Source: Sphingomonas sp. Leaf357 (GTDB lineage Bacteria; Pseudomonadota; Alphaproteobacteria; Sphingomonadales; Sphingomonadaceae). Taken from it: DNA of 64,000 bases. This document shows positions 31,223-34,489 of this stretch, piece after piece (position 1 is the stretch's first letter; the number at the start of each line of letters is the position of its first letter). The notes under the pieces are model-generated. The model was not told the origin of the DNA. It saw only the letters and a list, made by a program, of their open reading frames with translations, and did no database searches. The position numbers and the translations under genes are program-made. The stretch is from assembly GCF_001423845.1 (NCBI RefSeq), contig NZ_LMPM01000001.1:62001-126000 (forward strand). The letters are read 5' to 3'.

Positions 31223-31636
31223 TTGCGCAAGCTCCAGGATTATCTCGATCGGATCGAAAGCTCGATAGCGGCGGGCGAGGCGGTTCTCGCGCAACGCGAC
31301 CCTCTGCTCACCGGCACGGTGAAGGCCAAGTGCACCGAAGCGGCGCTGTTGATCGGATCGTACCAGATGTTCGTGCACCGCGAGGTGTTCGAACCGCTGA
31401 TGACCAGCCCGGACGACCGCGTGCGGCGGCAGGTTTACGCGCTGAAGGCGGAGTGCATCGCGCTCAGCGAGGATCTGCGCACCAGCGTCAGAACGCTCGT
31501 CGCCCGCGAGACACCGATGGATCAGGACGCGATCCAGGCGCGGGTCGAGTGGTTCAATGTCCGCGTACGGCGACATATCGCCGGGGTCTTGCTGCTGCTC
31601 GACTCGCCGGGCGGCGCGCTGCGGCGCGCGGCCTGA
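31223..31636 (+). CDS. Hypothetical helical protein, 137 aa
   Basis: An all-helical soluble protein with a TTG start preceded by a CGAAGGGA site. Stretches such as CTEAALLIGSYQMFVHREVFEPLM and RHIAGVLLLLDS carry His and Glu in a heptad-like layout reminiscent of hemerythrin-type four-helix bundles, but the full metal-ligand set is not evident. Function unknown. It precedes the thrS leader by 39 bases. Confidence 0.6.
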   Translation: MRKLQDYLDRIESSIAAGEAVLAQRDPLLTGTVKAKCTEAALLIGSYQMFVHREVFEPLMTSPDDRVRRQVYALKAECIALSEDLRTSVRTLVARETPMDQDAIQARVEWFNVRVRRHIAGVLLLLDSPGGALRRAA

Positions 31637-31675
31637 CGTCTGGCGGAGCGGCTCGCGATACGCTATATCCGCCCC

Positions 31676-31750
31676 ATGTTCGTACGCCGCGCTTTCCCCA
31701 CTACCACCACCCCGGTCTTCCGGGGGGAGTTCGGTACGCGCGTTCACTGA
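31676..31750 (+). CDS. Putative thrS leader peptide, 24 codons with a Thr run
   Basis: A short ORF beginning ATG-TTC-GTA encodes a 24-residue peptide containing FPTTTTPVF: four consecutive Thr codons (ACT ACC ACC ACC, 31700-31711) plus one later ACG, ending TGA at 31748. No Shine-Dalgarno precedes it. A TATATC at 31664-31669 could be a -10 element placing the transcript start at or near the ATG, that is, a leaderless leader peptide as known for rhizobial trpL. A Thr run before threonyl-tRNA synthetase is what ribosome-mediated attenuation would need. Confidence 0.7.
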   Translation: MFVRRAFPTTTTPVFRGEFGTRVH

Positions 31751-31800
31751 CACGTCCGGCCGAAACTCCACCCGCGAAACGGGTGAGAGACACGGCCGCT
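31710..31800 (+). promoter_or_regulatory. thrS: Candidate transcription attenuator upstream of thrS
   Basis: The stems fit classical attenuation. Stem 1 (31710-31715 with 31720-31725, CCCCGG/CCGGGG) begins at the last Thr codon. Segment 31726-31734 can pair with 31760-31769 (nine pairs, one bulged A). That region is alternatively part of a hairpin 31757-31798 with outer CGGCCG/CGGCCG and inner CACCCG/CGGGTG stems. A ribosome stalled on Thr codons would leave 31726-31734 free and block the last hairpin; one reaching the stop would cover it. A U tract is missing after the last hairpin (it is C/T-rich). Confidence 0.6.
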
Positions 31801-31876
31801 CCCTCCTGTTTCCTGACCGCTTCACTCCGGCCGCCATCCGGTGCATAGGCGCACGCATTCGACAGGATTTCTACCG

Positions 31877-33868
31877 ATGAACATGTACTCGATCACGCTT
31901 CCCGACGGCTCCGTGCGCGAAGTCGCGCCCGGCACGACGCCGGCGGATATCGCGGCGGCGATCGGCCCGGGCCTCGCCAAGGCGGCGATCGCGGCGCGGG
32001 TGGACGGCGAACTGCGCGACATCATGCGCCCGTTCGAGGGCAATGCGAACCTCGCTTTGGTGACGGCGAAGGACGAAAAGGACGCGCTGGAGCTGGCACG
32101 TCACGATTTCGCGCATGTCATGGCCGAAGCGGTGCAGCATCTGTTTCCTGGAACGCAGATCACTTTCGGCCCGGCGACGGACGACGGCTTCTATTACGAT
32201 TTCGCGCCGAAGGAGCGGCCGTTCACCGACGAGGATCTGCCGGCGATCGAGGCGGAAATGCGCAAGATCATCGCCAAGAACGAGCCGTTCGTGCGCGAAG
32301 TGTGGAGCCGCGAGCAGCTGATCGCGACGTGGCGGAAGCAGGGCGAGACGTTCAAGGCGGAATGGGCCGCCGAACTGCCGGATGGCGAGGAACTGACGAT
32401 CTATCGCCAGGGCGCGTGGCTCGACATGTGCCGCGGTCCGCATATGGTTTCGACCGGCAAGCTCGACCCGACGGCGTTCAAGCTGACTCGCGTGTCGGGC
32501 GCCTATTGGCGCGGCGACCAGAACAACGCGATGCTCAGCCGCATCTACGGCACGGCGTGGCTGAACAAGAAACAGCTCGACCAGCATCTCTTCCGGCTGG
32601 AAGAGGCCGCCAAGCGCGACCATCGCAAGATCGGTCAGGAAATGGACCTGTTCCACCTGCAGTCCGAGGCGCAGGGGTCGGTATTCTGGCACCCCAAGGG
32701 TTTCCTGCTGTGGCGCCAGCTGGAGGCGTATATGCGCCGCCGTCTGGACGCGGCGGGCTATGTCGAGGTCAAGACGCCGCAGCTGATGGACGCGCGCCAA
32801 TGGGAGCAATCCGGGCATTGGGGCAAATATCGCGAGAACATGTTCGTCGTGCCCGACGAGATTCCGAACACGGACGATGAGGCGGCGATCTTCAGTGGCA
32901 CCGCCGATCTGATGGCGCTGAAGCCGATGAACTGCCCGGCGCACGTGCTGATCTTCCGCCAGGGGATCAAATCGTACCGCGACCTGCCGATGCGCATGGC
33001 CGAATTCGGCTGCTGCCACCGCAACGAGCCGCACGGCGCGCTGCACGGCATCATGCGCGTGCGCCAGTTCACCCAGGACGATGCGCACATCTTCGTGCGC
33101 GAGGACCAGTTGATCGAGGAGGTGCAGAAGTTCTGCGAATTGCTCGATTCGGTCTACAAGGATCTTGGCTTCGAGGATTATGCCGTGAAGCTGGCGCTGC
33201 GCCCGGACAAGCGCTTCGGCGACGACGCGATGTGGGACAAGGCCGAGGACGAACTGCGCCAGGCGGTGCTGCTCTCCAACCTGAGCGAGCCGATCAAAGC
33301 GAAGTTCGAGGAACTGCCCGGCGAAGGTGCCTTCTATGCGCCGAAGCTGGAATTCCACCTGACCGACGCGATCGGGCGGACATGGCAGGTCGGCACGATC
33401 CAGTCCGACCGCGTGCTGCCCGACCGCCTCGACGCGAGCTATGTCGGCGCGGACGGCGAGCGGCATCGCCCGGTGATGCTGCATCGCGCGATCCTGGGCA
33501 CGTTCGAACGCTTCATCGGCATCCTGATCGAACACCATGCCGGGCGCTTCCCGCTCTGGCTGTCGCCGGTGCAGGCGGTGGTGGCGACGATCGTCTCCGA
33601 CGCCGACGATTATGCGAACGAGGTGACGGAGAAATTGCGCGCGGCGGGCCTTCGCGTCGAGACGGACGTGCGCAACGAGAAGATCAACTACAAGGTGCGC
33701 GAACATTCGCTGGCCAAGGTCCCTAACCTGCTGGTCGTCGGCAAGCGCGAAGCCGAGGAAGGCACCGTCGCGCTGCGCCAATTGGGCAGCGACCGGCAGC
33801 AGTTCCTAACGCTGGATGCGGCCATCGCCATGCTGGTCGAGGGTGCGAAGGCACCGGATCAAAAGTAA
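31877..33868 (+). CDS. thrS: Threonyl-tRNA synthetase
   Basis: A 663-residue class II synthetase charging tRNA-Thr. It has the N-terminal TGS domain (residues 1-63), the editing domain with [17 protein letters not shown] (HxxxH-type), and the catalytic core with zinc ligands in [10 protein letters not shown] and the motif 2 region [27 protein letters not shown]. Motif 3 is [23 protein letters not shown], followed by the anticodon-binding domain. Length is close to E. coli ThrRS. A leader ORF and alternative stems precede it. infC follows after 84 bases, as in enterobacteria. Confidence 0.99.
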
Positions 33869-33952: not shown

Positions 33953-34489
33953 ATCCGACCCCCTATAAACCGGCAGGCGCCGCCGATGAACGGCCCTCGC
34001 TTCAACGAATTCATCCAGTCGCCCAAGGTCCGCGTAATCGACGGGGACGGCGAAAATCTCGGCGTGATGTACACCCGCGAAGCGATGGAGCAGGCGCGCG
34101 AGGTCGGTCTCGACCTGGTCGAAGTGTCGCCCAACGCCGATCCGCCGGTCGCCAAGTTCCTCGATGTCGGCAAGTTCAAGTACGAGGCGCAGAAGAAGGC
34201 GAACCTCGCCCGCAAGAGCCAGAAGACGCAGGAGATCAAGGAGATCAAGATGCGTCCGAACATCGACGACCACGATTACGACACCAAGATGAAGAAGGTG
34301 AACGAGTTCATCGGCGAGGGCGACAAGGTGAAGATCACCCTGCGCTTCCGCGGCCGCGAGCTTTCGCACGGCCAGCTCGGCATGGCGCTGCTCCAGCGCG
34401 TGCAGGCCGATGTGGTCGAAGTCGCCAAGATCGAAGCCTATCCGCGCATGGAAGGCCGGCAGATGCTGATGGTGCTCGCACCCAAATAA
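33953..34489 (+). CDS. infC: Translation initiation factor IF-3
   Basis: A 178-residue IF-3: N-terminal domain with [26 protein letters not shown], a Lys-rich linker helix ([27 protein letters not shown]), and the C-terminal domain to MLMVLAPK. I place the start at an ATC at 33953 because AGGAG (33940-33944) lies eight bases upstream and the resulting N-terminus has the expected length. The first ATG (33986) lacks a ribosome site. Rare start codons in infC are the known basis of IF-3 autoregulation in E. coli (AUU). No rpmI or rplT follows. Confidence 0.95.

Follow-up and report, generated by a model that had tools for sequence, protein, structure and literature searches.

A candidate ribosome-mediated attenuator with a threonine-rich leader peptide upstream of thrS in Sphingomonadales

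The threonyl-tRNA synthetase gene, thrS, of Sphingomonas sp. Leaf357 is preceded by an RNA element that is probably a ribosome-mediated attenuator acting through ribosome stalling and transcription termination. As judged from sequence comparison, the element very probably lets a stalled ribosome activate thrS once charged threonine tRNA becomes scarce. The comparison supports a leader ORF, its run of Thr codons, the spacing of its start, its linkage to thrS and a set of conserved alternative helices; from these we infer translation of the leader, stalling, the co-transcriptional order of folding and termination at the last helix, E:F.

Results

The leader and thrS at the locus

The window, which is the whole stretch of 64,000 nucleotides that was analysed, had been the subject of a preliminary description made from the sequence alone. 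That description placed a 24-codon ORF with four successive Thr codons just before thrS, and both were found. The peptide reads MFVRRAFPTTTTPVFRGEFGTRVH, and the ORF closes with the stop codon TGA. The features of the locus are as follows.

31640 to 31668, + strand: candidate promoter P1, with a weak -35 box (CTGGCG, 31640-31645), a 17-nt spacer and a -10 box (CTATAT, 31663-31668)
31676 to 31750, + strand: leader-peptide ORF of 24 codons, probably leaderless on the basis of start spacing and comparison
31700 to 31711, + strand: four consecutive Thr codons (ACT ACC ACC ACC), the proposed stall site
31861 to 31867, + strand: likely Shine-Dalgarno region of thrS (GACAGGA, located by eye)
31877 to 33868, + strand: thrS, threonyl-tRNA synthetase (ThrRS), with TGS, tRNA_SAD, tRNA-synt_2b and HGTP_anticodon domains

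Downstream of thrS lies a gene with IF-3 domains (33986-34489), and upstream of the leader is a 137-aa ORF (31223-31636) that has no Pfam match. Transcription from P1 is expected to start at about 31676, as CTATAT ends 7 nt ahead of the leader AUG. A scan with strict consensus criteria for sigma-70 promoters and terminators passed neither a promoter nor a terminator. An Rfam scan of the window returned nothing at family cut-offs, T-boxes included, and no T-box appeared among the matches up to E 10 in 31620-31900. The best weak match was to His_leader (RF00514), which at E 1.6 and 16.8 bits against a cut-off of 49 is non-significant and short of the score for membership in that family.

Conservation of the leader among relatives

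Of the 187 unique thrS upstream regions that we collected from near relatives and other genomes, about 30 lie outside Sphingomonadales. In 46 of the 187, a short ORF carried 4 or more Thr within 6 codons. The next-ranking residues in the same count were Arg (34) and Ala (22), which GC-rich DNA would be expected to give. At a threshold of at least 3 Thr in 6 codons there were 62 loci, from which 11 chance ORFs were removed by eye (L050, L083, L098, L100, L104, L107, L108, L141, L178, L181 and L195), leaving 51 leaders. Most of the 51 share a layout in which the start is followed by a few to about 20 codons, the Thr run, an CCGGnnnnCCGGGG-like hairpin (A:B), the stop codon and two further hairpins. 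Ahead of the Thr run the leaders differ in length by multiples of three bases (first alignment, by eye), as expected if the frame is translated. Short ORFs clustered in codons for the amino acid of the downstream gene, a mark of attenuators, are thus found upstream of thrS, and the frame, the start spacing and the conservation together suggest that the leader is translated. Many relatives have no leader at all. In four Sphingomonas leaders (L006, L012, L019 and L027) the Thr run is broken or short, as in T-S-T-T, and the hairpins downstream form a different set; these are possibly decaying or diverged versions.

No Shine-Dalgarno-like motif was seen by eye before the leader ORF, in agreement with the preliminary description, and its suggestion that the ORF may be leaderless is backed by a -10 box 7 to 8 nt before the start that recurs across relatives. 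For 50 of the 51 leaders we took, among in-frame starts no more than 60 nt from the Thr run, the one that matched best, a choice that itself favours this spacing, and an xTA hexamer ended 7 or 8 nt before the chosen start in 43 of the 50. A match to CTATAT at 5 or 6 of 6 positions occurred at that distance in 29/50 leaders versus 31 of the 1870 ATG or GTG codons in the collected regions, the leaders included. Such spacing is that expected of a leaderless mRNA, and the leader mRNA probably begins at the leader AUG.

Alternative helices

Downstream of the Thr run the RNA appears to form a set of segments like that of the his operon leader, in which A:B, C:D and E:F are opposed to B:C and D:E'. 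The segments in the window are listed here.

31710 to 31725, + strand: A:B hairpin (CCCCGG-TCTT-CCGGGG), directly after the Thr run
31726 to 31735, + strand: B arm of B:C
31759 to 31769, + strand: C arm of B:C, overlapping the C arm of C:D
31766 to 31789, + strand: C:D hairpin
31776 to 31787, + strand: D arm of the D:E' antiterminator
31799 to 31812, + strand: E' arm of the D:E' antiterminator
31793 to 31833, + strand: E:F hairpin, the conserved candidate terminator stem (CGGCCG, 31793-31798, with 31828-31833), without a U tract

The proposed pairing of 31726-31734 with 31760-31769 was recovered as 31726-31735 with 31759-31769. A hairpin spanning 31757-31798 had also been proposed; it appears in the minimum free energy fold and its inner stem is the conserved C:D, but its outer stem (31757-31762 with 31793-31798) is not conserved, with at least 5 Watson-Crick (WC) pairs in 16/43 leaders against 44% when partners were swapped among leaders. 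The trp/his-type geometry put forward earlier therefore holds insofar as the alternative stems depend on ribosome position, and it needs amending to six his-like segments with E:F, not 31757-31798, as the terminator candidate.

Structure tests covered 43 of the 51 leaders, one of which (L007) was re-delimited by hand. Left out were L011, L070 and L123, in which no C:D was found, and L006, L027, L067, L101 and L186, in which C:D was badly delimited or the architecture differed. An energy-only test of D:E' (RNAduplex against shuffles) gave p<0.05 in only 9/43, and it was replaced by partner swapping because GC-rich RNA pairs anyway. Helices of at least 6 WC pairs formed with the leader's own partner in 33/43 leaders for E:F (29% with swapped partners) and in 20/43 for D:E' (7% swapped). 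For B:C the corresponding figures were 19/43 and 30%, which is modest support. The most telling helix is D:E', since it uses the C:D loop, which C:D itself leaves unconstrained. The loop plus the first D base was complemented in the leader's own downstream region in 23/43 cases, compared with 184/1562 (12%) in sequences with other loops, and the maximum in 5000 permutations was 18.

Covariation points the same way. An all-species alignment (A2, 35 rows) was made after 8 of the 43 leaders had been excluded (L013, L048, L072, L075, L085, L132, L137 and L170). In A2, E' and F are shifted between Sphingomonas and Erythrobacteraceae types, so the two groups were counted apart, as A3 (Sphingomonas type, 20 rows) and A4 (Erythrobacteraceae type, 10 rows), with L007, L008, L033, L139 and L159 in neither. 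In A3, 92.8% of D:E' cells are paired, four pairs have changed on both sides, and the covariation score was reached by 0/500 shuffles; slid by one column, the helix is still 82.0% paired. C:D and E:F together are 92.5% paired in A3, with a score reached by 7/500 shuffles, and pairs changed on both sides number three in E:F and none in C:D. In A4, C:D and E:F together are 89.7% paired: C:D is 100% paired with one pair changed on both sides, and E:F is 78.7% paired with five. D:E' in A4 is 90.0% paired, and its covariation score was reached by 38/500 shuffles. Between the groups D:E' goes from mostly GGAAC/GUUCC types in A3 to mostly GUUUC/GAAAC types in A4.

When another 22 copies (30 loci, of which 8 could not be parsed) were tested for exact D:E' 5-mers, the result was weak, with 7/22 for the leader's own loop versus 31/232 for other loop types. 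Overall, D:E' and E:F show covariation, and the support for C:D and B:C is weaker. The preliminary description had called for this comparison and had named leaders lacking Thr codons, or non-compensatory changes in the stems, as grounds for rejecting its reading; the Thr run is conserved, and the leader reading survives.

The stretch from B to C folds into an extended hairpin that carries the stop codon close to its tip, and it does so better than shuffles (mean z -2.62, with 36/43 below -2). The mean z is -1.61 for the stretch from D to E' and -1.15 for that from C:D to F, the latter only a slight advantage over shuffles. The distance from the end of B to the stop codon is 5 to 22 nt, and in 36/43 leaders C extends into the C:D stem. 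For RNA of the window ending at 31770 to 31790, the predicted probability of B:C is 0.88-1.00, until D is made. With a ribosome at the stop codon and RNA to 31845, C:D is predicted at 0.99 and E:F at 0.93, but lengthening the RNA to 31876 lowers the equilibrium value for E:F to 0.02. In the window, C:D plus the outer stem is favoured at equilibrium even when the ribosome is stalled, so the switch must be kinetic. Mutually exclusive helices that ribosome position can select are thus present, and equilibrium folding of the window counts against such selection.

Distribution of the element

A covariance model, R1, was built from the Thr run and the downstream RNA of 26 training sequences, the window's (L001) included. 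At E<=0.01 it matched 22/25 held-out leader loci, some of them close kin of training rows, and 0/29 loci without a recognised leader. In the window's own genome the leader was the sole match (E 9e-10). R1 matched 109/297 Sphingomonadales genomes from 23/73 genera, one copy each; this is a lower bound from strict filters. Training rows had come from at least seven of these genomes. Linkage to thrS was counted on 45 of the 109 copies, all of which lie upstream of thrS. At 30/30 of the best-scoring loci ThrRS is encoded beside the match, and 15/15 other matches for which the place of thrS is listed, the window and G061 included, precede the gene on the same strand. In one genome, G150, the match is about 600 nt from thrS.

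On a rough ThrRS tree the presence of the leader is patchy. The 16 changes counted on it are rough, two loci with leaders (L202 and L221) being unlabelled and four weak leaders (L012, L019, L120 and L122) labelled by eye. The window's closest thrS relatives on this tree, L023, L114 and L115, have no recognised leader, as would follow from recent loss, gain or exchange.

The missing U tract and a candidate second promoter

The weak point conceded in the preliminary description, that no U tract follows the last hairpin, was upheld: by eye, none follows E:F in the window, where E:F has 6 bp and a 29-nt loop. Attenuators of the trp/his type have a terminator hairpin with a U tract before the structural gene; here the stem is conserved and the U tract is missing from the window. 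Among the 43 leaders, the 8 nt after F hold 0-3 T in 31, the window (1 T) included, and 4 or more in 12. In one Sphingomonas subgroup (e.g., L005, L010, L055, L125 and L130) all or part of CUCUUUUC comes after F. E:F has at least 6 WC pairs in 18 of the 22 further copies, and 17 of these 18 have 2-3 T.

Sequences near the 3' end of the element also resemble a promoter.

31820 to 31849, + strand: candidate thrS-proximal promoter P2 (CTTCAC, 31820-31825; 18 nt; CATAGG, 31844-31849)

A CTT-type box 16-18 nt before a CATARG-like box occurs at 19/27 leader loci and more loosely at one more, with no match at 7/27, and TTGCC-N16-18-CATAAG lies near thrS at 13/53 other Sphingomonadales loci; the pattern was fixed after the sequences had been viewed and carries no chance control. 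In the window's subgroup the CTT box stands before F. P2 may be a second, thrS-proximal promoter whose -35 box would, in some species, also serve as the U tract; with such a promoter, part of thrS transcription could be independent of the leader.

Discussion

How might the element sense threonine supply? The mRNA made from P1 would start at the AUG of the Thr-rich leader peptide. When charged tRNA-Thr is short, the ribosome would stall in the Thr run and leave B available for pairing with the emerging C. With B:C formed, D could pair with E', which would trap the E arm in the D:E' loop; E:F could then not form, and transcription would continue into thrS. When Thr-tRNA is plentiful, the ribosome would reach the stop codon and cover B together with the beginning of C; C:D and E:F would form, and transcription would end before thrS. 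P2 may supply basal thrS mRNA in addition. One tentative possibility, which we regard as rather doubtful, is that a leaderless, his-type attenuator dedicated to thrS terminates without a canonical U tract and that the U-tract site became the -35 box of P2. If this reading of P2 is true, one short stretch would serve both as the end of the attenuator and as the start of unregulated basal transcription.

The U-poor tail of E:F leaves room for other explanations. A fairly unlikely one, which agrees with attenuation up to its last step, is that the leader is read by a ribosome and premature termination is Rho-dependent. A ribosome leaving at the stop codon would expose an untranslated C/U-rich stretch after C:D, and the hairpins would only set the exposure. 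The window fits this in lacking a U tract after E:F and in being pyrimidine-rich at 31799-31828, but a Rho site would not need an E:F helix kept through compensatory change, and the CUCUUUUC or UUUUC directly after F in one subgroup also argues against it. The same U-poor tail would suit control of thrS translation rather than transcription, with leader translation opening or closing the thrS start region. That is improbable, given that the last conserved helix in the window ends 27 nt before the Shine-Dalgarno region and that a P2 transcript, if made, would escape.

The element may instead be decaying in this species, with P2 driving thrS and the leader having little effect. The missing U tract, the short E:F with its long loop, the P2-like boxes and the absence of a recognised leader from the closest ThrRS relatives on the rough tree are in line with decay, yet the Thr run, the frame, the -10 spacing, B:C and D:E' are all intact in the window, and we consider decay unlikely. 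Autoregulation of the E. coli type, in which ThrRS represses translation by binding its own leader, has a precedent for the same gene, but it would not require the run of Thr codons and the alternative stems that are conserved ahead of the thrS start, and it is highly improbable here. Attenuation by a ribosome reading the leader remains the preferred explanation.

The closest architectural parallel is the his operon leader, whose segments A-F form A:B, C:D and E:F against B:C and D:E. Both have a leader peptide with a run of cognate codons and the same succession of helices. Unlike the his leader, the thrS element has Thr codons, precedes a synthetase gene, probably has a leaderless start and has a U-poor tail after E:F. 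It would work like a his-type attenuator, except for the U tract that the window lacks. Other groups have predicted attenuation of synthetase genes from comparative analyses. In E. coli, ThrRS binds the leader of thrS mRNA, which is not known to encode a leader peptide; the gene is the same, with a ThrRS-binding leader there and a Thr leader peptide here. E. coli thrS is under its own control (PMC2965389).

Leader-peptide attenuation of synthetase genes is already known, including a proposed leaderless thrL-thrS (PMC8632094, PMC8079986). In Streptomyces lividans, a leaderless leader peptide has been proposed upstream of thrS, with one hairpin that likewise lacks a U-rich run, but thrL has 18 residues with two Thr and belongs to another phylum (PMC8079986). 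Covariation of alternative helices, reported here, was not met in the accessible part of that description (PMC8079986). The uORFC-8-2 motif upstream of cysS in Rhodobacterales is a candidate ribosome-mediated attenuator that likewise concerns a synthetase gene in Alphaproteobacteria; it differs in having Cys codons, two prominent stems (with a third possible) and a U run at its 3' end (PMC8632094). For a leader RNA that starts at its AUG, there is an alphaproteobacterial precedent in the attenuator trpL-trpE(G) of Sinorhizobium meliloti, although that system serves a trp biosynthesis gene and its sRNA and peptide act in trans (PMC7298713). In the literature searched, mostly without subscription papers, no thrS leader attenuator in Alphaproteobacteria was found. 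The element would provide an essential synthetase gene with a concrete feedback circuit, unlike the E. coli model of thrS, in a large environmental order for which these searches showed none. Moreover, both U-tract and U-poor copies occur in nature, so that termination without a U tract can be tested directly in high-GC Alphaproteobacteria.

Thr leaders also occur beyond Sphingomonadales. Among 117 regions from outside the order, a few of which repeat one species, a convincing Thr leader precedes thrS in three (L101, L221 and L234), all from more distant Alphaproteobacteria. Counting codons did not reveal convincing Thr enrichment outside the order (at least 4 Thr in 6 codons in 4/88, versus 10 for Ala and 8 for Arg), and the three were identified by promoter anatomy, two of them (L101 and L221) also by a terminator-like hairpin. 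R1 did not match L101 and reached only E 0.96 on L221 and E 0.24 on L234, so common descent with the Sphingomonadales leaders is not established. The leaders start at about 1176 (L101), 1266 (L221) and 81 (L234), with TTGACA promoters directly before them, and in L101 and L221 the promoter reads TTGACA-17-GATATT. Both of these leaders have a hairpin followed by UUUUUU (-19.1 and -18.2 kcal/mol, respectively), the interrupted stems of which terminator scans overlooked. By eye, the 5' arm of this hairpin can also pair with GGAGGG inside the leader, an arrangement that looks like a plain trp-type switch.
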